From Chryseobacterium sp. W4I1 (GTDB lineage: Bacteria; Bacteroidota; Bacteroidia; Flavobacteriales; Weeksellaceae), in contig NZ_JAUSXQ010000001.1 of the NCBI RefSeq assembly GCF_030816115.1, forward strand, positions 3,410,001-3,474,000: a DNA stretch of 64,000 nucleotides. The letters are read 5' to 3'. Under the pieces are notes generated by a model. The model saw only the letters and a program-made list of their open reading frames with translations, did not search any database and was not told the origin of the DNA. Position numbers and translations under genes: made by a program. Positions 7,978 through 61,758 of the stretch are shown here, piece by piece; position 1 is the first letter of the stretch; every line of letters starts with the position of its first letter.

Positions 7978-9225
7978 ATGTCAACAGCAGCAACAGCAAA
8001 AAATTCACAATATTTTATTGACCTTGAAGACAAACATGGAGCACACAATTATCACCCTCTTCCAGTAGTTCTTGACCGTGGAGAAGGCGTTTTTGTATGG
8101 GATGTGGAAGGCAAAAAATATTATGATTTTCTTTCAGCATATTCTGCTGTCAACCAGGGACATTCTCACCCTAAGATTGTTAATGCATTGGTAGCTCAGG
8201 CTCAAAAACTGGCCCTGACTTCAAGAGCGTTCTACAATTCAAACCTGGGAGAATACGAACAGAAGATCACTACACTTTTCGGATTCGATAAGGTACTTCC
8301 TATGAATTCCGGAGCTGAAGCCGTAGAAACTGCCGTAAAATTAGCCAGAAAATGGAGTTATGAAGTAAAAGGGATTTCAGAAAATGCAGCCAAGATTATT
8401 GTTTGTGAAAATAATTTTCACGGAAGGACGACCACCATTGTTTCTTTCTCCAATGATCCGGATGCCAACCAGAATTATGGCCCTTTTACACCAGGATTTA
8501 TTAAAATTCCATACAACGACACCGCAGCATTAGAAGAAGTTTTAAACAGAGAGGCAGGAAACATCGCTGCATTTTTGGTGGAACCTATTCAGGGTGAAGC
8601 GGGTGTATATGTTCCGGATGAAGGCTATCTGAAAAACGTTTCTGAACTGTGTAAAAAACATAATGTGCTTTTCATTGCTGATGAAGTGCAGACCGGTATT
8701 GCAAGAACAGGACAATTAATTGCGTGTCATCATGAAAATGTACAGCCCGATATTCTGATCTTAGGAAAAGCCCTTTCCGGAGGAATGTATCCTGTATCCG
8801 CAGTATTGGCCAATGATAATATCATGAGTGTCATTAAGCCTGGCCAGCATGGTTCCACATTCGGAGGTAATCCTATTGCCTGTGCAGTGGCTATGGCCGC
8901 TTTAGATGTGGTAGCTGATGAAAAGCTTTCGGAAAGAGCAGAACAGCTCGGACAGCTTTTCAGAGCTGAGATCAATAAGCTCATCGAAAAAAGTGACCTT
9001 ATTACCAAAGTAAGAGGAAAAGGTCTTCTGAATGCTATTTTGATCAATGACACTCCGGATAGCTCCACAGCATGGAATTTATGTCTTCAGTTGAAAGAAA
9101 ACGGGCTCCTTGCAAAACCTACCCACGGAAATATTATCAGATTGGCACCTCCTTTGGTCATTACAGAAGAGCAGCTTTTAGACTGCGTAAAAATCATTGA
9201 AAAAACTTTTACAGAATTTCATTAA
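7978..9225 (+). CDS. rocD: ornithine--oxo-acid aminotransferase
   Basis: The 415-residue enzyme is a class III PLP aminotransferase that moves the delta-amino group of ornithine to 2-oxoglutarate, giving glutamate semialdehyde (arginine/ornithine breakdown and proline link). Visible hallmarks are [19 protein letters not shown] for cofactor phosphate binding, [10 protein letters not shown] with the Asp that contacts the pyridine nitrogen, and [16 protein letters not shown] with the Schiff-base Lys. Length and start ([20 protein letters not shown]) fit the RocD family, and the -7 box just upstream fixes the start. Its stop overlaps the next ATG by 1 nt, so the glycosyltransferase that follows is probably co-transcribed, although the functions look unrelated. 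Confidence 0.95.
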
Positions 9226-9983
9226 TGAAGTTATCAGTCTGTTATATTGTTTTTAATGGAGAGAGAATCATTGAGAAAAGTATCAATAGCATTTACCAAA
9301 TAGCTGATGAGATTATTATCGTTGATTCTTTTTCCACAGACAAAACTGAGGAAATCTGTACCGGGTTTCCGAAAGTAAAATTTATCCAGAAAAAATTTCA
9401 CGGCTTCGGCTGTCAGAAAAACTATACCCTGTCAGAAGCTTCGGGAGAATGGATCTTATTCCTGGATTCTGATGAGGTTCCGGATGAAACAGCTGTAAAT
9501 GCTATCAACAACATTTTAAAGAGCACTGATCCTCCTTATAAAGTATATGAGATCCATTTCAACAATATCCTGTTGAGAAAAACCATTAAATATGGTGGCT
9601 GGGGCAATGTATGGCGAGAAAGGTTCTTCAAAAAAGGCCATGGAAAATATTCTGACGACCTGGTACATGAATGCTTTATCACAGAAGATAAAAAAGGAAA
9701 GCTACCGGGACACATCGACCATTACACCTATAAAAGTATAGCCCATCATATTGAAAAGATCAATAACTATACCCAATTAATGGCAGAAAAAAAGGTTTCC
9801 AACGGAAAAACAGTATCTCTTTTCAAGATGATATTTTCACCTTTTTTTGATTTCATGAAAAACTATTTTTTCAAACTGGGTTTTCTGGATGGTATTGCAG
9901 GATTTTACATTTCCATTACCGGTGCCTTTTACACATTCCTGAAATATGTAAAAATCAACGAGATCCTTAAATTCAGAAAATAA
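9225..9983 (+). CDS. family 2 glycosyltransferase, WaaE/KdtX-like
   Basis: The 252-residue GT-A type enzyme has the N-terminal nucleotide-sugar fold (VCYIVFNGERIIEKSI), then IIVDSFSTDKT and the DxD-type motif FLDSDEVP. The segment KFHGFGCQKNYTL is typical of the WaaE/KdtX group, which adds glucose to lipopolysaccharide core heptose. The C-terminal part contains hydrophobic stretches that may associate with the inner membrane. It overlaps rocD by 1 nt and opens a run of surface-glycan genes, so a role in lipopolysaccharide core or surface-glycan assembly is likely. The sugar and acceptor cannot be told from sequence. Confidence 0.9.
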   Translation: MKLSVCYIVFNGERIIEKSINSIYQIADEIIIVDSFSTDKTEEICTGFPKVKFIQKKFHGFGCQKNYTLSEASGEWILFLDSDEVPDETAVNAINNILKSTDPPYKVYEIHFNNILLRKTIKYGGWGNVWRERFFKKGHGKYSDDLVHECFITEDKKGKLPGHIDHYTYKSIAHHIEKINNYTQLMAEKKVSNGKTVSLFKMIFSPFFDFMKNYFFKLGFLDGIAGFYISITGAFYTFLKYVKINEILKFRK

Positions 9984-10005
9984 TTTTTAAATATTCAAAC
10001 CCATA

Positions 10006-10188
10006 TCAGCCGGAATACCAATCAATTGTATCATCCGGCTTTTCTTTATCTAAAAATAAATGGTAATGGATAGCCGGATATTGTATGTTGATCTTTTTAA
10101 ACCCCAGCTTAACATTCTTTTCTTTAATTTTATCAATGGCTGTTCAGTTCTTTACCTCTTATTTTAATGTATTTTTAAGTTCCTGCAT
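10006..10188 (-). pseudogene. remnant of a small minus-strand gene
   Basis: On the minus strand, an ATG at 10188 opens MQELKNTLK, then TAA (10161-10159) and TGA (10146-10144) interrupt the same frame. The frame continues as TAIDKIKEKNVKLGFKKI and on to IDWYSG and a stop at 10006. The composition of the last 45 codons looks like real protein, with an amphipathic Lys/Ile-rich stretch. No family is recognised. It is best read as a decayed gene inside the 373-nt gap between two plus-strand polysaccharide genes. Confidence 0.4.
10008..10044 (+). terminator. possible terminator after the WaaE-like gene
   Basis: AGCCGGA (10008-10014) pairs with TCCGGCT (10034-10040), and an inner ATAC/GTAT pair extends the stem. 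TTTC follows, giving only a short U tract. It overlaps the 3' end of the minus-strand remnant, so the symmetry may be coincidental. Confidence 0.4.
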
Positions 10189-51373: not shown

Positions 51374-51957
51374 ATGAATAAACAACAACAGCAAGTTAAG
51401 GCTCGCAAAGATTGGCTTAAAATCTATTTACAAGAATGAAAGTTATTAGGATCTACTCTAATAAAAAAGCAGAAAGTACGATACATTTTTTAGGTGAAAT
51501 TTTGGATACATTCTATTTTCCTATACAGCATATTCAAACTGACTGGAGAACGGAATTTTTTAATTATTCCTTTCAATACGAATTGCATGAGCATTTTATC
51601 AAATACAGGCCCATCAAGCCCAGATCCCCTCATTTAAATGGTAAAGTAGAAAGAACCCAACAGACTGACAAATCCGAATTCTGGTCACTAATAGATTTAT
51701 CTGATCCAGATCTTGATTTAAATGCTTTAGCTATTGAATGGCAGGAGTTCTACAATAAGAAAAGACCACACTCTTCTTTGAATGGAAAAACGCCTTGGGA
51801 AAAGTTACAGTTGTTGGAACATCTCATCCCTATTCAGCCTGATGTTACTGCAAAATTTTGGGACTCGAATGAAGTAATATTGCCCAGAAATTATACTTAT
51901 TTAAGTTATATAAAACAAAAAAATATTAATTTAGTTTCAAAGCCCAAGAGGAAGTAG
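51374..51957 (+). pseudogene. internally deleted IS481-type transposase
   Basis: ATG 51374 opens MNKQQQQVKARKDWLKIYLQ, a typical transposase N terminus of the IS481 kind, which stops after 21 codons. Overlapping it, the frame 51436-51957 gives the C-terminal half of the integrase core, with IQTDWRTEFFN, PRSPHLNGKVERTQQ and YNKKRPHSSLNGKTPWE (the last Asp and Glu of the DDE triad). The middle, including the N-terminal helix-turn-helix and the first catalytic Asp, is missing. It is a dead element; I could not fix terminal inverted repeats with confidence. Confidence 0.8.
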
Positions 51958-52008
51958 GCTCTGCTGGGGAGCAACCTACCAGCACTAGGCTTTTAGATAT
52001 ACGGAAAG

Positions 52009-52035
52009 GGAGACCCAAAAGGTCTCCTCTTTTAT
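52009..52035 (+). terminator. hairpin downstream of the transposase remnant
   Basis: GGAGACC (52009-52015) pairs with GGTCTCC (52021-52027) around CAAAA and is followed by T-rich sequence. An outer imperfect pairing (51995-52007 with 52034-52046) extends it. It may be a terminator or the end of the former element. Confidence 0.55.
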
Positions 52036-52144: not shown

Positions 52145-52558
52145 CTAGTGATTATTTTTCTTTAATTTTTCGCATTTACATGGAGGTGGGGCTCCATTAA
52201 AATTCTTATTATCAAAATGTAGATAATATATTTTATTATCTCTTTCAATCAATAATGTTAAACTATCTTTTTCTTTAGAAACATGATCACCTAAATGAAT
52301 TTTTCCTGTCCATTGGTCAAGCATAGGTAAACAGACTTCTCCAAAATTCATGTAAGCATTCATGTGATTTGCCGTATCTGCAATCTCACCTAAATATACT
52401 TCTTTGTTCATTTCAATCGGAGAAAAATCGTCTAGGAATGATTCTGTTCCTGATTTAAAAAAATCAGACAAATCTTTTTTCTCCGAATTAAAATAGATAA
52501 AAAGAACTAGGAATCCAATCAATGAAAGTATAACTGTTATTTTATTATTCTTAAACAT
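52145..52558 (-). CDS. orphan candidate immunity protein with one membrane segment
   Basis: Starting at ATG 52558 (137 residues, MFKNNKITVI), the product has one N-terminal membrane helix and a periplasm- or cytoplasm-facing domain rich in acidic residues, ending in a Cys-x-Cys, Lys-rich tail. It starts 7 nt after the end of a decayed Rhs tip on the same strand, the usual place of an immunity gene for a polymorphic toxin. No family is recognised. The coding frame is intact although the tip upstream is broken, which would fit an immunity gene kept after its toxin was displaced. Confidence 0.65.
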   Translation of the reverse strand: MFKNNKITVILSLIGFLVLFIYFNSEKKDLSDFFKSGTESFLDDFSPIEMNKEVYLGEIADTANHMNAYMNFGEVCLPMLDQWTGKIHLGDHVSKEKDSLTLLIERDNKIYYLHFDNKNFNGAPPPCKCEKLKKNNH

Positions 52559-52565
52559 TTTAATA

Positions 52566-53517
52566 TTAATTTTTAAGTGGTGTTGTCCAAAAAAGTTTCG
52601 TTGCACCATATTGATAAGATCCACCTGCGCCAATTGGATTAGTTCCAATACCAAAAGTTGTATAACCTTTTGCTCCGTTATTATTGAGTCCAAAATTACT
52701 CGGATTCATATCCCGTAATTGAAATCTGCCATCATAGTCTGTTCCTCCGTAAGATGCATTAAGAAATGGAACACCTCCTGAATAACTCATTCCATTTCCT
52801 GCAAAATCTCCAATTTTAAAATCATGCCCCTCGGCAGGAGTTACGCTATACATACTTAAAGATGGACCCACATCATAATCCACATCAAAATTTATATTGG
52901 CATAAAAAGAACTTCCATTATTATTATCAGCAGAAACATAACTAGGGCTCCAGACCATCCATAACCAACTATTGAACTGTATCTAAGTTCTACCCCCATT
53001 CCTCCAGATCCAGCTAATTTTAATTGGCCTACAGTTGCCAACATTTTGACTATCAGGATTAATTCCAATTTGAGTTCCTGCTCCAGTTGTAAAGGATTCA
53101 GTCATAACCTTTCCACTAGAGTCGGTTGCAACTCCTGTATCACTTAAATTATATTGATAATTTTGATTGCCATTACTATCTGTTCCTGTTATTGTTAAAG
53201 CATCTTGATATTCCTAAACTCCCATATATTTTTTATCTTGAGCATCTTGTAATGAATGAACATCTTTATCGTAAGTCCAAGATGTTTGCCCATCAACAAC
53301 TGACTTAATCCATCCTGTACCTTCTCTTCCGTCAGGGTCTACAAAATTAATTGGATTATTGAAAGCATAATTAAAAGGAGAATGTCTTCTCATCTTTTCT
53401 GCCAACGGATCCACCACTCCCCATCTTCCAATATCCGGCATATACATTCTCGCTCCATAGTCATACATTCCAGTCTCTTGCAACTCCTTCCCGTTGTACT
53501 TGTAGTTCTATAATTCC
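52566..53517 (-). pseudogene. decayed orphan Rhs tip (core end plus C-terminal toxin-like region)
   Basis: On the minus strand the frame begins [20 protein letters not shown], the end of an Rhs core. It continues through [10 protein letters not shown] to [11 protein letters not shown], the point where toxin tips normally begin. A TAG (53216-53214) follows KKYMGV in the same frame. The frame then continues ALTITGTDSNGNQNYQYNLS and is shifted twice (around 53030 and 52940), so that ATVGQLKLAGSGGMGVELRY is read in another frame. It then returns to the first frame and ends TTPLKN. It has no start of its own and was once the 3' end of a full rhs gene. The tip family is not recognised. Confidence 0.75.
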
Positions 53518-53541
53518 ATTCAATTGAGAGAAGTTGTTTAT

Positions 53542-54060
53542 TTAAATACCCAAATGTTTTACGGTTAATAACTTCCATTGATTTTCTTTACAAGAATATT
53601 CAAACACTATTACCGAACCTCCTACATTTGTAAACTGATAGTTTTTATTCTTGTATGTTATTTTAAAATCCATAATGTTGATTGTGATTCTATTTCCGTT
53701 TAATACTTCTATGATTTTCCATACATTTATTCCTTTTTTTAAAAGGCTTCTGTTATTTTTATCATAAATATCAATTTCTTTGAATTGTATTTTAGAAATA
53801 GTGTTTATTTTAAAACCTCGATTATTCTCGTCTAGTAAATATAAATTATTAATCTTAGTAGAAAGTTGCTGTATATAAAGTTTCCAATTTTCGGTTTGAA
53901 TATCTTTACTCAATTCTTGCTTATAAAAATTATAAAAATCATCACCACTAATTACTATAGCATCATCTTTTAAAGTTTTATATTCATTGTCTAATTTTTG
54001 AGCTTTAATCGTAAAAGAACAAAGTAAAAAAATACAGATTAAAGATATTATTCTTTTCAT
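53542..54060 (-). CDS. candidate immunity protein for the Rhs-JAB toxin
   Basis: The 172-residue protein has a signal peptide ending TIKAQ and a soluble mature part with alternating charged and aromatic residues (DDFYNFYKQELSKDIQTENW, YKNKNYQFTNVGGSVIVFEY). It starts 2 nt after the Rhs stop on the same strand, the standard position of an immunity gene. No known immunity family is recognised. Export suggests that the toxin would be met outside the cytoplasm, or that the protein has another envelope role. Confidence 0.7.
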   Translation of the reverse strand: MKRIISLICIFLLCSFTIKAQKLDNEYKTLKDDAIVISGDDFYNFYKQELSKDIQTENWKLYIQQLSTKINNLYLLDENNRGFKINTISKIQFKEIDIYDKNNRSLLKKGINVWKIIEVLNGNRITINIMDFKITYKNKNYQFTNVGGSVIVFEYSCKENQWKLLTVKHLGI

Positions 54061-54062
54061 TT

Positions 54063-57000
54063 CTATTTTGTTTTAGGGGTTACAAAGTATTTTTGAGGAA
54101 TAGTCGCTTTGACACCTGTATTATTATAAATATATACAGTTCCATTTGATCTGGAGAAAACATAATTAATTGCAGTTCCACTATTTTGAATATCTCCTCC
54201 TTGATTTGATGGTGCATTCCCCCAACTACTTGTAGTTGTAGTTCCTCCTATCGTTGCAGAAGATGATCCCATAATATTATTTGAACCTGATGATTCAGTT
54301 TTACTTCCACTTGGATGCGAGTGAAATATAGATTGATTTCCATAGCTAGTAATCGAAATACTTGCATTTGGATCTGTTGCGGGATCGCGAACAGGTCCCA
54401 TTGGAGATTCTACAACAGTACCGTCTTTTTTAATTCTACCTCCGTATTCTCTATTATTTGCATCAGATGTCCCTCCTTTTCCATTATCCTGATTGACTAT
54501 GTCTACCATCCCTTGACGTGTATCAGGACTTCCTGTAATTTCAACACTATTATCATAAGCTAAACTATTTGATTGAAATGCGGAAGTATTTCCAGAGTTT
54601 TCGGTAATAAATTTTTCTGTTGCTTTTCTATCCTTATTAGATATTCCTGCAGATGGTGCGCCAGAATCAAAGCTTGATTTTGTTGTTTTTACTACATAAA
54701 CTTTTTTATCATCAATACCATCATTACCCAAATATGTTCCATCTTCACTTATAAAATCTCCTTCTAATCTTCCATCGGGATCTATAAAACGAATAGGATT
54801 GTTATAAGCATAACGATATGGTGACCAAGCTCTGTTAACTTCCGCCAAAGGATCTACCACACCCCATCTTCCCAAGTCAGGCATATACATTCTCGCTCCA
54901 TAATCATACATTCCCGTTTCTTGCTGTAATTCTTTGCCATTATATTGATACTTATAAGCAGGATTTCCTGTCAAAGCATTATATCCTTCATGTTTTAAAC
55001 CAAACGGATAATAATTGTTTTCTTCAAGAACTGCTGTGTTGCTGCCATTGTTGAAATAACTCAAACGTACATTTCCCAAATGATCTGTATAGTTGTAAAT
55101 ATACTTATTTTTTACAAAATCAAAATAACCTTCTGAGGTCGGTACAAACTGTAAATCAGGTGTAGGAGGAGGACAATCAATACATCCAAATCCTATGCCT
55201 TCAAGTACATATTGAAAACTATCCAAATAATCCGTAGTCGTTAGAGCAAGGTTTGTATTTCCCTGCCAATCTTTTTTGTAATAAGAATATACTTTTTTAA
55301 GTTTTCTTCCATCAGCTCCATAAAGATGGGAGATAATACCCCCGAAAGGACTTGTATTATTATTCTTAGTAAGAATAGAAGGAAGGTTGAGGAAATTATA
55401 CTGAATATTTGTAATTTCTTTATCTACATGATTCGTCATATTTCCGTTCAAATCATAGCCAATAGTATTTCCACCTCCAACATACCCTGAATAATTCTGG
55501 GAAGCATCCGTTACATTTAACAGCCTATTACCTGCATAGTTATACGTTAAATTGTCAATTTGCATTGCCATTCCGTTGGTTGTATTTTTAGCATTCCGAT
55601 ATAATCGGGTAATATTACCATTCAGATCATATTCTATAGATTCCCCGAAATGATCTTCCAGTGGCACAGTACTATTAGGCTCAGAATAATGTCCGAATTT
55701 AAGTCTGTTTAATTTATCATAATTATAAGAGTATTTTTTTAGTACACCATCATTTGAAGTCTTCCAATCGACTTCTGCAATATTCCCGTTATACTTTGCC
55801 ATAGCAAAAGTAGTATTGACTGGATTATGGTATCTAAGCTCATATCCGAATAATTTTCCGTTCAGGTTAACGGGATCATTAATCTGTGTCATCCAGCCAC
55901 GGATGTTGTATTTGTAATCTATGGTCTGTAATGGTGATGCTATAGCTATTCCCCCAACTTTTTTAGATTCCAGCTGGGAAAGCTCATTGTATTTGTTTTG
56001 AGCCAGATATTCAACAGGGTTGCTGCCTATCTGATGGGTATGGGTCAAAAGCCTGTTCTGGTGATCGTATGTAAAGTTTTCAGTGATGACTCTTTCATTA
56101 TCAGTAGCCAGTCTTTTGTGTCTTGTAACTGCAATTTGTGGAACACCTGAAAAATCAAGCTTAGATTCTGTTTTAGTATACCCCCCCAAATGGTTAATGG
56201 AATGAGTTCCTATTGAGCGTCCTTTAGTATCGTAATAGGTATAATTCTTTGTCCAGTTATCGTCCTCAATATTCTTCACCAGGCTCATCACCGGAAGTCC
56301 TTTGGTGCTTCTTCCATCTGCAGGAGTATCGGTCAAAACAGGCTCATCCTGGATGGTTGAGGGGAAAGAAGGATTAAAGCTGTATGGAGGATAAGTGTCA
56401 TAATAATTTAATGTTAATATCTTAACCCATTTTGTAGAATTCGGATAAGTAACATCCTGATTTCCGTAATATACATCCATGCCCTGTCTGTTAAAAGCAG
56501 TAGCTACACGAATGACATTATTAGAGCCTAAAGCATCTATTTCTGATTGTTCAACGCTTCTTTGATAACCTGTTCCTATTCCCGTGATTGCCACTCTTCC
56601 GAACTGGTCGTATTTGGTGTACAGCCATTGACCTTTTTCTTTTAAAATAGTGTCTTGAGTAGCTACTAGACGATCCTGTTTATCATATAGCATATATTCC
56701 CAGCCTTTGCCTGGTAGTTTCTTTTCCACTAAACGGCCTCTGCCATCGTAACGGTATTGGTAACACAAATCGTTTAACACGGTATCTGTAATAGGTCCTT
56801 GTAATGCTTTAGGAGGAATAACAAATGCCAGCTGGTCATATTCATTATACACATAATAGGTGTCAGTGTAATATGTCCCATCAAATTTTCTTACCATTAC
56901 AGCCTGCCCTTGCCCATTTTTGAATTCTATAGTGATATTACCATCTTCATCAGTTACTGTATTCTTGTATAATTGGTTTGGCGGAAAATATTCCAGAACT

Positions 57001-57530
57001 AAAGCAGATGATGTGGCATTATTTACCCAGGAGGTATTGGTTGTAAATTTATAGACTTCATATTGGGCATTGGTATCGTACTGAAAGGTTACGGGCTTAT
57101 TTGCCCAGGCTGTTCCAACTTGAATCTGCTGCTGGATCCTGTCCAATGGAGAGTTTTCCAAAACCTTTTCCGCATAGATTTTTTCTCCCCCATAAATAGC
57201 TGGTGCATTACCTAGTGGTGTAGGAAAAATAGCTCCATTTTGTGTTGAAGATTGTGGGATAGGTAAAAAATCTTTAGTTTGTCTTCCGAATCCGTCATAT
57301 TCGATATGATTTACAACATCTCTTCCTAATGGTGATGCTTTTACACCTACAATTTGTTTAGGTCTTCCTAAGCCATCAAAATACTGAACGGTTTCTGAGA
57401 TCTTGGTAGGTGTTGTCCCATTGTAGTCCAAATAGGTTTTAGACTGGATATAGTTTTCTTCCTGGGTAAGCTGGGCATATGCTGAATGGGTGATCAGCAG
57501 AAGACCAATAGGAATGATTATTTTTTTCAT
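54063..57530 (-). CDS. Rhs toxin: DUF6443 N-terminus, Rhs core, JAB/JAMM-like C-terminal tip
   Basis: The 1155-residue protein has a signal peptide ending SAYAQ, and a DUF6443-like N-terminal region (ETVQYFDGLGRPKQIVGVKA). A long set of YD repeats (for example YDKQDRLVATQD, YDLNGNITRLYRN) follows, then the Rhs-associated core ending [20 protein letters not shown] and FIDPDGR near residue 918. The last ~238 residues are the variable tip. It holds EYGGRI, then IFHSHPSGS near residue 1070 and NAPSNQGGD, the order expected of a JAB/JAMM metalloprotease (Glu, His-x-His, Ser, Asp), as in the polymorphic-toxin family Toxin-JAB1. The enzyme role is predicted from motifs only. The gene lies between its YD partner and a candidate immunity gene, 8 and 2 nt away. 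Confidence 0.88.
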   Translation of the reverse strand: MKKIIIPIGLLLITHSAYAQLTQEENYIQSKTYLDYNGTTPTKISETVQYFDGLGRPKQIVGVKASPLGRDVVNHIEYDGFGRQTKDFLPIPQSSTQNGAIFPTPLGNAPAIYGGEKIYAEKVLENSPLDRIQQQIQVGTAWANKPVTFQYDTNAQYEVYKFTTNTSWVNNATSSALVLEYFPPNQLYKNTVTDEDGNITIEFKNGQGQAVMVRKFDGTYYTDTYYVYNEYDQLAFVIPPKALQGPITDTVLNDLCYQYRYDGRGRLVEKKLPGKGWEYMLYDKQDRLVATQDTILKEKGQWLYTKYDQFGRVAITGIGTGYQRSVEQSEIDALGSNNVIRVATAFNRQGMDVYYGNQDVTYPNSTKWVKILTLNYYDTYPPYSFNPSFPSTIQDEPVLTDTPADGRSTKGLPVMSLVKNIEDDNWTKNYTYYDTKGRSIGTHSINHLGGYTKTESKLDFSGVPQIAVTRHKRLATDNERVITENFTYDHQNRLLTHTHQIGSNPVEYLAQNKYNELSQLESKKVGGIAIASPLQTIDYKYNIRGWMTQINDPVNLNGKLFGYELRYHNPVNTTFAMAKYNGNIAEVDWKTSNDGVLKKYSYNYDKLNRLKFGHYSEPNSTVPLEDHFGESIEYDLNGNITRLYRNAKNTTNGMAMQIDNLTYNYAGNRLLNVTDASQNYSGYVGGGNTIGYDLNGNMTNHVDKEITNIQYNFLNLPSILTKNNNTSPFGGIISHLYGADGRKLKKVYSYYKKDWQGNTNLALTTTDYLDSFQYVLEGIGFGCIDCPPPTPDLQFVPTSEGYFDFVKNKYIYNYTDHLGNVRLSYFNNGSNTAVLEENNYYPFGLKHEGYNALTGNPAYKYQYNGKELQQETGMYDYGARMYMPDLGRWGVVDPLAEVNRAWSPYRYAYNNPIRFIDPDGRLEGDFISEDGTYLGNDGIDDKKVYVVKTTKSSFDSGAPSAGISNKDRKATEKFITENSGNTSAFQSNSLAYDNSVEITGSPDTRQGMVDIVNQDNGKGGTSDANNREYGGRIKKDGTVVESPMGPVRDPATDPNASISITSYGNQSIFHSHPSGSKTESSGSNNIMGSSSATIGGTTTTSSWGNAPSNQGGDIQNSGTAINYVFSRSNGTVYIYNNTGVKATIPQKYFVTPKTK

Positions 57531-57538
57531 GTTTGTGT

Positions 57539-60500
57539 TTAGTTTTTATAGTTGTATTTATATTCTTTAACTATTTTGTATACAGGATTTCCTGCAGCAT
57601 CTTTACTCAGCTGTTTCACTTCCTTTAATCGATTAGCTGTGTCATAAACATACATTTCCCTGATGCCGGAAGGCGGGGTAATGCTTCTAACTCCGATTAA
57701 TGGGTCGTAAGTATAGGTACTGATCTGATAGTTTGATAATGCAGAGTTATTTCTGAAAATATCCAAAGCTGAAATTAAAGACTGCTCTGAGGTATCAGTA
57801 CCCAGCTGGGCATCATTAGTAGATGCGTTAACGATACTGTCTATCACCGTTTGTGAGATATCTGATAATTTTGCTCCTTCTATTTTAGCAATAGGCTGGG
57901 TTTTGTTGTAGCCCCAAATAACTGTTGTTGAAATACCATCTTTTGTGGTGTATTGTATAGGATTTCCTTTGGTATCATATCGGTTAAATACCACTTCTTC
58001 GGATGGCAAATTTGTTTGAAGATCATATGATAAAATAGATGTAGGGAGTAACAGATTTCCAGTTTGCCCTGTGGGCAATGATGTTGGATAAACATTATCA
58101 ATCTTTGCGATTGTTTTATTGTTTTTTTTCGTTTCACTTTCTACAGGAACTCCCACCATATATGCGTTAACCATTGCCTGATTGTTAATATCTGAAGCAT
58201 ATTTATAAGTTGTGAGATAACTATCTGTTCCATCACTTTTAGTCTGATTAATAGGTGTATTATATATATTGTTATATGCATTGGTCTCGATGGTTTCCAT
58301 ATTATCAAAAACTGTTTTCTTTTGAGACAGAAAGCTAGTATTGAAATTTATATGATAAGCATCAAGTAAAACTCCATACCATGTTCCGGCATTTTGGAAG
58401 GATGATCCAGGTGTCCCCACACTTTGGCTGAAGCGTTTATGAATCGATGTATAAGCTCTAAGATAATCCTGCTGCTGTATATAAGTATAATTAGTTTCAC
58501 TTATCTTTTGGGTATCAGACCAGATTATTTCTTTCAAAGCCTTTCCGCGCATCAGTGAATATGAAGTATATGGAAGTTGCTTATACAACGCGGGTATACC
58601 CCAACCCATATAAGCTCTGCCTCTCAAATCATTTGAACTTTCCTGATCAAAATTGGTAAAATAACTTTCTTTTTTTCCACCGTTATCATCAATCTCAGTT
58701 ACTTTACTGTAGCCTACCGAATTATCTTCGTCTTTAAGGCTTTGGTAGGAATTGAAATTGAAATCCCAGAAGCTATAGTTTATGGAGGGTTCGCCTCCTT
58801 CTATTAAATAAATAGGTTTATATGGAAGTATTCCGCTTGAAGAAATTCCACCATCACTTACGTAGGAATATGTTTTGTTAAAGCAATAATTATTTTCATT
58901 ACAGGAACTAATTTTTTTAATTCTTAACCCACCTCCCGTCTCTTTAACGGCAGAGGTTGTATACAGCTTTAGCATACTTTGGCTCATATCCTTATCACCA
59001 TATTTGGAATAATCGTTCAATTCATATTCAAAGTTCGTTTTTCCACCAGTTGGATAAGTAATCTGTTCCAATGTTTGTGCTTTGGTCAGGTTAAGGTTAG
59101 GCATTTTGTAATTCGGGTAAATGTTCTGATAGACATTTTTCTGCTGGTCAGGTGTCATAGTATAGAGTGAAAAATAATCAGATTCAAAATTGTTTCCATT
59201 ATAATATCCCCATCCATCAATTTTATCTGTAGTATATTTTGGCAATTTCGTGCCGTTATACTGAAACGAATATTTCTCTATTGTATTGATTGTTAAATTA
59301 TTAAGTAAAAGTCGATCGTTAGGATCATTATTATAAGTAAAAGCAATATTTTTTATTACTTTTCCTCCTCTGTCTGTAACAGTAATATTATCAAGCTTAT
59401 GCCAATGCTTATGATTATTATAGCTTTGTAAATGATGAGCATATGGTGGAATCCATTCATTCGCAGGGAATTCGAATTCATCATATTCTTTCTGATCAGC
59501 CATAGACCTGTTAAGGTTAACAACAAAATCCTCGCCCTCCACTTTTGTTAAAAAAACATTATTCAACCTGTTGCTGGTAAGGATAAATGTCTGTCCTGTA
59601 GAAGAAGAATTACTGATATTTCCGAATAATGATCCATTTTTATCCCAAGAAGCATTTCCGCTTCGATTTACTACAAAAACGCTTCTGTCATCACGAGTAT
59701 AGGTAAACTTCATATTTTTACCGTCTGGATAGATAATTTCTTTAACTTGCCATGAAGCCGGAATAATCTGAGGATTAAAACTTGTATCTACCTGTTCTGA
59801 CGTTGATGAAAATTCTATAGCAGTGTCATCTAACCCAAAAACATACTTTGTTCCATCATCCATAATGATATTGAATCCATACAAAATCCTTTTTAATGTA
59901 TAATATCTTGGAATCGTAGTATATTGTGTTCCGACGATAATATTTTCAGGTAGTTTATAATCAAATTTATATTGATGTTCCACTTTAAAAGTCCTTCCTT
60001 CTCTGGTACGGCCAATCCACTTTCCTTTTTCATTCAGATAAAAGCTCCCTGTGATTCCGCCTACATTAATGATAAATTCATCAGGCGCAGGAACTACAGT
60101 TGGAAACGCATTAGGTAAATTATTGTCATAATTGGTAACAAAAAAATCATTCATTGCCTGTTGTGTATCCCAGTTTGGATTATCCAGCATGGAATAATTA
60201 TCCAGATAAGAAAAGTGATTATATGGAACGGTATAAATTCCAGTATACACCTCATCCACTCCTCCGTTTACAATTCTTGTTACAGAACCTCCCACATTAA
60301 GACTCCATCCCAAGCCTGTCCATGTCGGGATTGTGGATGGCTTTACGGTTTTTACATTATAATCTAACGACATTGCAAAATTGCTTTGCCCTTTCTGTGT
60401 GCTGAATAATGAAATATTTATAACAGGAACTCCCTTATACATATTTACAGGATATTTTCCGGTCACTGCAAAAGGAGTAGTATTTGGACTTTGAGGAAAG

Positions 60501-60592
60501 AAATTATCTCCAAAATTTTTATAATTCTGTATTCCTTGTGCCTGATATAAAAAACTCAATAATGTTGAGGCTAAAATTATATTTTTTTTCAT
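57539..60592 (-). CDS. secreted YD/Rhs-type partner protein
   Basis: The 1017-residue protein has a signal peptide (ending LYQAQG) and an N-terminal region with PVNMYKGVPVINISLFSTQK and GLGWSLNVGGSVTRIVNGGV, typical of the large proteins that precede DUF6443 Rhs genes in Flavobacteriia. The C-terminal ~150 residues carry Rhs-like repeats (VVFNRYDTKGNPIQYTTKDG, then YVYDTANRLKEVKQLS), so the fold probably runs on into an Rhs-like shell. It starts 5 nt after the T9SS protein and ends 8 nt before the Rhs toxin, so the three form one transcript. The likely role is to help carry or wrap the toxin; this is inferred. Confidence 0.85.
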   Translation of the reverse strand: MKKNIILASTLLSFLYQAQGIQNYKNFGDNFFPQSPNTTPFAVTGKYPVNMYKGVPVINISLFSTQKGQSNFAMSLDYNVKTVKPSTIPTWTGLGWSLNVGGSVTRIVNGGVDEVYTGIYTVPYNHFSYLDNYSMLDNPNWDTQQAMNDFFVTNYDNNLPNAFPTVVPAPDEFIINVGGITGSFYLNEKGKWIGRTREGRTFKVEHQYKFDYKLPENIIVGTQYTTIPRYYTLKRILYGFNIIMDDGTKYVFGLDDTAIEFSSTSEQVDTSFNPQIIPASWQVKEIIYPDGKNMKFTYTRDDRSVFVVNRSGNASWDKNGSLFGNISNSSSTGQTFILTSNRLNNVFLTKVEGEDFVVNLNRSMADQKEYDEFEFPANEWIPPYAHHLQSYNNHKHWHKLDNITVTDRGGKVIKNIAFTYNNDPNDRLLLNNLTINTIEKYSFQYNGTKLPKYTTDKIDGWGYYNGNNFESDYFSLYTMTPDQQKNVYQNIYPNYKMPNLNLTKAQTLEQITYPTGGKTNFEYELNDYSKYGDKDMSQSMLKLYTTSAVKETGGGLRIKKISSCNENNYCFNKTYSYVSDGGISSSGILPYKPIYLIEGGEPSINYSFWDFNFNSYQSLKDEDNSVGYSKVTEIDDNGGKKESYFTNFDQESSNDLRGRAYMGWGIPALYKQLPYTSYSLMRGKALKEIIWSDTQKISETNYTYIQQQDYLRAYTSIHKRFSQSVGTPGSSFQNAGTWYGVLLDAYHINFNTSFLSQKKTVFDNMETIETNAYNNIYNTPINQTKSDGTDSYLTTYKYASDINNQAMVNAYMVGVPVESETKKNNKTIAKIDNVYPTSLPTGQTGNLLLPTSILSYDLQTNLPSEEVVFNRYDTKGNPIQYTTKDGISTTVIWGYNKTQPIAKIEGAKLSDISQTVIDSIVNASTNDAQLGTDTSEQSLISALDIFRNNSALSNYQISTYTYDPLIGVRSITPPSGIREMYVYDTANRLKEVKQLSKDAAGNPVYKIVKEYKYNYKN

Positions 60593-60597
60593 GATTA

Positions 60598-61758
60598 CTA
60601 TTTCTTGATTAGTTTGGTGCTAACTGTTTTATTGATATCTGTTTCTATTGTTATCAGATAAGCCCCTTGAATTAAGTTTTGCGTATTGATCTTCGTTACT
60701 TTATTCTTAGTTTTCAGACTTTGCAATTGTCTTCCTCCCATATCATACAACATAATATCCGCCTCTTTAAAATCAAAACCTATTTCTACATAAGCATAAT
60801 CTGAAACAGGATTAGGATAAATTTTGATGTCTTGTTTTTCGATCAACTGATCAAGTTGTTTATCTCCAAGCTTCACAATCTTCCAGTTCTCTTTCCCGAG
60901 TTCTTCGGCGCTGGTTCCTGCCAGAATAATAGAACCATCCCTGTTCAGCTTTATATCTGAAAGCCTTTCTTCTCTTTTTCTGGATTCTCCTTTGACATGT
61001 TTTCTCCACTGCTCATTTCCATCCTGGTTCAGATACAGCATCCAGAAGGTTTCATCATCAGTCTCAATTCTTCCTTCTGCCTGCGTATAACCACCCAATA
61101 GAATTCCTTTGATCACATCTTGGTTCTTGGATCTTGTATCCTGGCTCTGAATAACACTCACTCCCATCAGGATATCTCTATTCCCAAACTTGTAGGATTT
61201 CTGCCAGATTTCTTCCCCTCTTTCGTTCAATGAAATAAGCCATAGATCGGTTCCTTCTTCAATGCCTGCTGTTTTATTTCCGGATCTCTCGGATCTGGAT
61301 TCGCCACCAATCAAATAGCCTGCTGATGTCAATGACAGTGTTCTGATGTGATCATCTCCTTTTCCGCCAAAATTCTTTTCCCATTCTACTTTCCCGGTTT
61401 TATCCAGCTTGATGATATAGTAATCTCCTTCGCCATAATTTTCGGTTTTCTTTGAACCGCCTGTAGTGCTTCTTGAATAAATTCCCAACAAAGCTCCTCC
61501 ATCTTTCGTAGGAATCATTTTCTCTACTTCATCCAGACCTTTGCCTCCTACAATGGATTGAGAAAGTTCTTTCCCGTTTTTATCGAGTTTTACTATCAAA
61601 ACATCTTTGGAGCCATACCCTTTAGCCGAATTTTGTATGTTACCAGACACAAAGAATCCAAGATCAGTTGTTTGGATAACAGATTTGGCTTCTTCATCGG
61701 AAGGACTTCCCACTGTTTTCTGCCATAATTCATCTCCGAATTCATTAAGTCGAATCAA
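60598..61758 (-). CDS. T9SS type A repeat protein, C-terminal part after a nonsense codon
   Basis: The 386-residue frame carries repeats of about 50 residues with the pattern WQKTVGSPSDEEAKSVIQTT / GFFVSGNIQNS, as in beta-propeller-like secreted proteins. The last ~75 residues form a T9SS type A sorting domain (IKIYPNPVSDYAYVEI, then YDMGGRQL and IQGAYLITIE). The frame continues unbroken upstream to 61902 and is separated from the N-terminal part (61903-62154) by one TGA. The ATG at 61758 is therefore probably not the true start. The full protein would have 518 residues. Type IX export to the surface is predicted. Confidence 0.82.
   Translation of the reverse strand: MIRLNEFGDELWQKTVGSPSDEEAKSVIQTTDLGFFVSGNIQNSAKGYGSKDVLIVKLDKNGKELSQSIVGGKGLDEVEKMIPTKDGGALLGIYSRSTTGGSKKTENYGEGDYYIIKLDKTGKVEWEKNFGGKGDDHIRTLSLTSAGYLIGGESRSERSGNKTAGIEEGTDLWLISLNERGEEIWQKSYKFGNRDILMGVSVIQSQDTRSKNQDVIKGILLGGYTQAEGRIETDDETFWMLYLNQDGNEQWRKHVKGESRKREERLSDIKLNRDGSIILAGTSAEELGKENWKIVKLGDKQLDQLIEKQDIKIYPNPVSDYAYVEIGFDFKEADIMLYDMGGRQLQSLKTKNKVTKINTQNLIQGAYLITIETDINKTVSTKLIKK

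Follow-up and report, generated by a model that had tools for sequence, protein, structure and literature searches.

Displacement of the C-terminal ends of rhs genes was reportedly first described by Jackson et al. in 2009. Among the orphan rhs-CT/rhsI and cdiA-CT/cdiI modules described by Poole et al. (2011, PMC3150448), a tip fragment that carries a piece of the core, mostly without a translation start, is followed by an immunity gene and lies behind a complete gene, and orphan tips are found on complete genes elsewhere. In the E. coli EC93 example of that work, cells make the orphan immunity protein but apparently not the orphan toxin (PMC3150448). C-terminal displacement arrays of rhs have also been described in bee gut bacteria, where most rhs genes of Apibacter (Flavobacteria) adjoin T9SS sorting-domain genes (PMC8125069). 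In the sequential T6SS effector displacement described for Vibrio cholerae, which leaves arrays of immunity genes, a new pair replaces the old effector and the old immunity gene is kept, with protection against kin as the hypothesis (Kirchberger et al. 2017, PMC5361080). Polyimmunity loci are described in Bacteroidetes (PMC3482391), as are T9SS-neighbouring polymorphic toxins of a class other than the one treated here (PMC7073777).

Here we analyze a stretch of 64,000 nucleotides from Chryseobacterium sp. W4I1 (hereafter, the window), which holds an rhs locus that shares these features. On our reading, positions 52145 to 53510 of the window are an Rhs tip-immunity cassette that rhs C-terminal displacement has left behind and whose immunity gene is predicted to block the same toxin tip when it comes from relatives; we put the probability of this reading at roughly 85%.

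The rhs locus and its displaced cassette

The rhs locus runs along the minus strand in the order sorting-domain protein, Rhs-like partner, complete rhs, immA, core end, broken tip B, immB. Just upstream of the rhs genes is a gene for a T9SS type A sorting-domain protein (60598-61758; TIGR04183, E 8e-12, above cut-off), followed by an Rhs-like partner gene of 1017 aa (57539-60592; YD_repeat_2x, E 0.0012, above cut-off) whose relatives stand upstream of rhs in related loci too. The complete rhs gene encodes 1155 aa (54063-57530), with DUF6443 at its N end (PF20041, E 1.5e-32) and a match to Rhs_assc_core (TIGR03696, E 4.1e-18). Its end forms the active tip A (about 54066-54770), which also occurs on a complete rhs gene in another genome (G092). 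Directly behind lies immA (53542-54060, 172 aa, with a signal peptide recognized by eye), the candidate immunity gene of tip A. In a set of 197 related genomes, that of W4I1 included, immA relatives were found in three, W4I1 among them, and in both others they adjoin a tip-A relative. We count 53542-54060 as the immunity gene of the active tip and not of the displaced one. Tip A (54063-54770) also contains an HxHPSG stretch resembling JAB/JAMM metalloproteases, presumably their motif, with no such match in Pfam. Tox-JAB-1 and Imm65 were tried as assignments for tip A and immA and rejected, as no such Pfam family appeared at E <= 1; the HxHPSG of tip A and the YxC of immA (a motif taken from PMC3482391) are resemblances only. 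Matches of immA to LTD and ComGF fell below their curated cut-offs and were set aside.

About 31 bases after the immA stop, the Rhs core resumes. This displaced core end (53325-53510, the lower bound approximate) opens with a core fragment reaching up to a DPxG motif and has neither a start of its own nor an export signal (the latter judged by eye). Its peptide matches TIGR03696 at E 1.9e-14, above the cut-off, and so the second core end is not a chance resemblance. Between 53397-53481 and 54840-54924, the remnant and the active core form an 85-nt repeat that is 87% identical, within which 23 nt (53437-53459 and 54880-54902) match exactly. Behind it comes the displaced tip B (52566-53324), whose frame is interrupted by an in-frame TAG and by two frame changes. 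Compared with the intact relatives (G022, G026, G020, CH21 and G010), the TAG is a substitution; the two frame changes may be real or sequencing errors, between which the assembly cannot distinguish. The broken frame stops a few bases short of immB (52145-52558, 137 aa, P0006), the orphan candidate immunity gene, which encodes a single N-terminal membrane helix (recognized by eye) and a small beta domain. A longer frame starting at TTG had been taken as the orphan immunity gene and was replaced by 52145-52558. The cassette is bordered by the C-terminal part of an IS481-type transposase on the plus strand (51436-51957; NF033577, E 7.3e-27, below its cut-off, positions 162-283 of 284). Beyond this fragment is a gene that we take, from its sequence, to be ruvC.

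A reading made from the sequence alone had proposed a second Rhs core end behind the active tip and its immunity gene, a 23-nt identity between the two cores, and an old tip decaying through a TAG and two shifts beside an immunity frame still open. Each of these bore out on reading the DNA and searching its products, and the core remnant, which it had put in the region of 53437-53517, runs from 53510 down to about 53325. DNA homology to the complete tip-B rhs genes of C. endalhagicum L7 (G022), CH21 and G026 (loci L069, L083 and L070) starts at 53507-53510 and stops in the last codons of immB. This span indicates that core end, tip and immunity gene form one cassette unit.

We propose that the rhs gene acquired tip A together with immA through an exchange in the conserved core end, and that the older cassette of core end, tip B and immB was left behind them; the architecture is observed, and from it we infer this order of events. 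Lacking a start, an export signal and a core of its own, the displaced tip B would be silent, and would then have accumulated the lesions seen in it. immB needs none of the start, signal or core of rhs and stays open; it may be read from the rhs operon or from its own promoter. Its product is predicted to sit in the inner membrane by its anchor, facing the periplasm, and there to block tip B delivered by relatives still bearing it on a complete rhs gene. Promoter and terminator scans returned 16 promoter-like sites against 12.5 expected, 3 terminator-like sites against 0.8 expected (one of which, at 52008-52028, follows the transposase fragment on the plus strand) and 80 copies of TAnnTTTG, which we take to be the Bacteroidota -7 motif, against 83.8 expected; we draw no conclusion on immB expression from them.

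Tip B and immB in related genomes

In the same 197 genomes, at E 1e-3, the open piece of tip B has matches in 18/197 and immB in 17/197, all in the one genus Chryseobacterium. A wide protein search returned 34 immB relatives, the named ones from Chryseobacterium except for one Frigoriflavimonas (59%) and one Riemerella anatipestifer (48%) protein. Seven distinct complete Chryseobacterium rhs genes bear tip B: the frames of G022 (1221 aa), G026 (1238 aa) and G020 (1161 aa), that of CH21, and proteins P0003, P0004 and P0005 (P0001 is the L7 gene and P0002 the CH21 gene). An immB relative lies directly behind tip B in all four complete loci whose DNA was read (G022, G026, G020 and CH21). Overall, 9 of 20 immunity matches adjoin a tip match, the W4I1 pair included along with three distant pairs at 29-36% identity (G023, G114 and G117). 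The sequence-only reading would have fallen had no genome carried the orphan tip on a full rhs gene, or had the immunity gene been missing wherever the tip occurs, and these results answer both points in its favor. W4I1 itself has only the broken window copy as a match to the tip-B piece at E 1e-3, and we therefore rejected the idea that immB is kept against a second tip B of its own genome.

The family is found in several states. Primary loci have an intact tip in 4/4 cases and an open immB in 3/4, the CH21 gene being frameshifted in its contig; where immB is displaced or orphan (six loci, 60% identity or more), a broken or missing tip is seen in 5/6 and an open immB in 5/6. The difference in tip integrity gives p 0.048 (Fisher), and the paired comparison of open immB with open tip in displaced loci runs 4 to 0 (sign test, p 0.125). 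In G010 a displaced cassette has an open tip as well as an open immB, whereas in three displaced loci with an open immB the tip is all but gone. immB without a tip occurs in Chryseobacterium sp. Bi04, whose contig starts 975 nt upstream, and in C. soli DSM 19298 (open in both), as well as in sp. MYb7 (damaged); C. soli has a second protein with tip B, on a complete rhs (P0005). Comparing immB from two C. soli strains (P0008 and P0014), we observed that the last 76 residues differ at one position and the first 60 differ widely, so that the gene looks mosaic. The linker that precedes the toxin domain of tip B is near-unchanged in a G032 tip (L064) with a much diverged toxin domain, suggestive of exchange inside tips.

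C. endalhagicum L7 and C. angstadtii KM (G017) share a site beside an M20 peptidase gene (named by eye). At L7 the order is rhs, tip B, immB, a core remnant and a lipoprotein-like gene, which resembles a next immunity gene. At KM it is rhs, another tip, a candidate immunity gene, the last ~40 residues of tip B, an open immB, a core remnant and the same lipoprotein-like gene. The two are 81% identical over the rhs core and 91% over the tip end and immB. Judged from the two sequences, this is a near before/after pair, in which a new pair at KM would have replaced most of the old tip and spared immB.

The sequence-only reading had also taken the open immunity frame to fit selection for continued immunity, and this part was not upheld for W4I1. 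Given the three lesions found along 940 nt of tip, an immunity gene of 426 nt would escape with no lesion with a probability of 0.33, and the lesion count is thus uninformative. Using our own codon models on eight immB genes, we obtained a one-ratio w of 0.063; the four orphan branches have w 0.074 (p 0.58 against the rest; w=1 rejected, p 3e-8) and the window branch alone 0.104 (w=1 rejected, p 0.025). On that same branch the largest open piece of the broken tip has w 0.025 (w=1 rejected, p 3e-7) and still looks constrained. Most of the branch would thus date from before the tip broke, and an open immB does not prove that selection has acted since then. For the branches that have lost the tip (G017, Bi04 and C. 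soli) the joint w is 0.064 (w=1, p 2.6e-5), a low value that rests on the long Bi04 branch, since G017 and C. soli without it give 0.27, above the rest (p 0.029) and indistinguishable from 1 (p 0.30), and G017 alone gives 0.25 (p 0.28). The uninformative lesion count, the constraint still visible in the broken tip and the relaxed w of two tip-less lineages are all in keeping with an immB that is a mere remnant, open only because the tip broke recently and without a present role. We regard this as unlikely, given that immB is open in five of the six displaced loci, including three whose tip has almost disappeared, and that w=1 is firmly rejected for the four orphan branches, even if w rises to 0.27 once Bi04 and the window are left out. 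Either selection or recency alone may account for the open immB in W4I1.

A further question is where the displacement took place. The proposal that a new tip-immunity pair had displaced the old one was upheld as far as the displaced cassette, the presence of its tip on complete rhs genes elsewhere, and an immunity gene that accompanies the tip and outlives it in other species are concerned; it was not upheld for the old pair having once stood on the rhs gene of the window itself. Nine other species were read at the ruvC site, and all of them lack a tip-B match there (in G004 the contig ends at this place). G017 carries a complete rhs that ends in a different tip; in G004 a core whose tip also differs stands at the contig edge; G006 shows a single weak core-end match, which lies apart from the gene; and the stretches fetched for G022, G027, G012, G020, G010 and G026 hold no rhs core. 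The cassette may therefore never have been on this rhs gene: it could have been displaced elsewhere and have come to the ruvC site within an array that was copied from a different locus or species, as the whole displaced cassette with an open tip in G010 would allow. We give this somewhat less than even odds, bearing in mind that displacement at an rhs gene is the source of such arrays in the systems described (PMC3150448, PMC5361080, PMC8125069). Core identities do not separate the two histories: among cores that carry tip B, the remnant is 81% identical to those of L7 and CH21 and 77% to the G026 and G010 ones; it is 80% identical to three cores bearing other tips (L026, L087 and L024) and 76% to the active core of the window, values compatible both with arrival along with the cassette and with local displacement. 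The cassette could also be a reserve, its tip returning to the core through recombination between the two core ends in a form of weapon switching, as is reported for CDI loci (PMC3150448). The 85-nt direct repeat would offer a substrate, but the tip is broken, the identical run reported is 23 nt and switching would also delete immA, which makes such a role highly improbable.

Displaced arrays, break points and Rhs class

Of the seven complete rhs genes in the W4I1 genome, five are followed by displaced core ends. We observed displaced tip-immunity cassettes behind four further rhs genes of this genome (L021, L023, L024 and L026). In L024 the core end and pre-toxin stretch are repeated in the displaced tips, the best pair being 97% identical over 500 nt. 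In L021 a displaced tip continues in one frame into an apparent lipoprotein-like immunity gene (8449-10140 of that locus). A TGTA repeat of 8.5 copies (L026:8598-8631) lies inside a lipoprotein-like, perhaps immunity, gene behind a displaced tip, whose frame ends just past the repeat; this is possibly a phase-variable orphan immunity gene. A further Rhs-core match (L077:5214-6452) belongs to a separate and shorter frame, in whose vicinity there is no second core end.

We then took a census of nine genomes comprising 171 core ends, 21 from W4I1 and 150 listed of 185 matches elsewhere. A core end was called short if its frame is under 900 aa, and chained if steps of at most 7 kb on the same strand lead to a longer upstream frame; frames of at least 900 aa include other Rhs classes. 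Among the matches listed, a chain to a long frame upstream is found for 86/97 short core ends, and 0/97 have such a frame within 7 kb downstream. G082 contributes 55 of these 97 and 51 of the 86 chained, and chaining is seen for 0/3 short core ends in G032 and 1/3 in G002, again among the matches listed. G082 has 84 core ends in its genome. Behind one of its complete rhs genes, 19 displaced core ends extend across about 46 kb (L093-L095), 18 of them also among the census matches listed.

The window remnant and several others begin near the codons for YNGKELQ. A fixed insertion point near this motif, as expected of site-specific insertion, was considered and rejected, because the starts of 91 displaced core ends (tblastn) spread from 0 to more than 131 residues upstream, with 2, 15, 11, 11, 14, 13, 9 and 16 sites in successive bins. 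The loci counted were chosen for holding arrays rather than at random, and tblastn ends may overrun by some residues; the count leaves out L096 and L097 entirely, as they belong to another Rhs class, along with a single L025 site, five sites lying at the edge of a fetched stretch or contig, and a complete gene that had been mislabelled. Such spread break points fit recombination at various points rather than a site-specific enzyme.

For the rhs gene at 54063-57530, a Pfam scan gives DUF6443, a weak RHS repeat and a weak aRib, and no PAAR. The T6SS sheath model TIGR03355 has no match in the W4I1 genome, though it may miss the T6SS of Bacteroidota. The T9SS channel SprA is encoded in this genome, and sorting-domain genes of the TIGR04183 type occur between two rhs loci in L022 as well as at 60598-61758. 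Going by its sequence, the Rhs class here is a non-PAAR, T9SS-neighbouring one. Neither tip B nor immB has a match above curated cut-offs in the Pfam and NCBIfam scans made, and we set aside the sub-cut-off matches of tip B to DUF4165 (E 0.0034) and Dioxygenase_C and of immB to NES_C_h and MAG1140.

Comparison with known systems

Architecture, mechanism and protection hypothesis are already known from the described systems (PMC3150448, PMC5361080, PMC8125069). What our analysis adds is an extension of rhs C-terminal displacement to a Bacteroidota Rhs class without PAAR, found beside T9SS sorting-domain genes, together with a near before/after species pair at one site (L7 and KM). Since tip B and immB occur in primary, displaced and tip-less states, selection on an orphan immunity gene can be tested against its slow decay with this one family.

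The predicted fold of tip B may resemble the Vap fold of Rhodococcus equi (VapD and VapB; PMC4118825, PMC4089522), at a Foldseek E of only 0.05 and with six strands listed in the model against the eight of Vap, described as an eight-stranded Greek-key barrel; there is no sequence match between them and we claim no shared function. A limited literature search found no work linking VapA of Rhodococcus equi to polymorphic toxins. It is conceivable, if rather doubtful, that Chryseobacterium runs T9SS-linked Rhs weapons and stores the spent tips in sequence behind each rhs gene (19 displaced core ends behind one gene in G082), and that tip B is the first of an unnamed Vap-fold family of antibacterial toxins acting on the envelope and blocked by a membrane-anchored periplasmic immunity protein.

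The orphan modules of PMC3150448 come, in the examples described, from Proteobacteria, and those orphan toxins that were tested are functional, whereas the window has a Bacteroidota Rhs with an export signal and DUF6443, and its displaced tip is broken. The displacement described in V. cholerae concerns T6SS clusters (PMC5361080), whereas here it concerns an Rhs core end. As described, the rAID arrays of gut Bacteroidales (PMC12247911) are also orphan immunity genes in Bacteroidota and have been shown to protect; they are recombinase-associated immunity arrays, whereas the window has an rhs locus with an IS481-type transposase fragment beside it, as found in the part of the window ORFs that was scanned. 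The displacement arrays of bee gut bacteria (PMC8125069) share both the architecture and the inferred mechanism and differ in the genera. Set beside these systems, the unnamed tip/immunity family with its Vap-like predicted fold and the array of 19 displaced core ends are possibly new.
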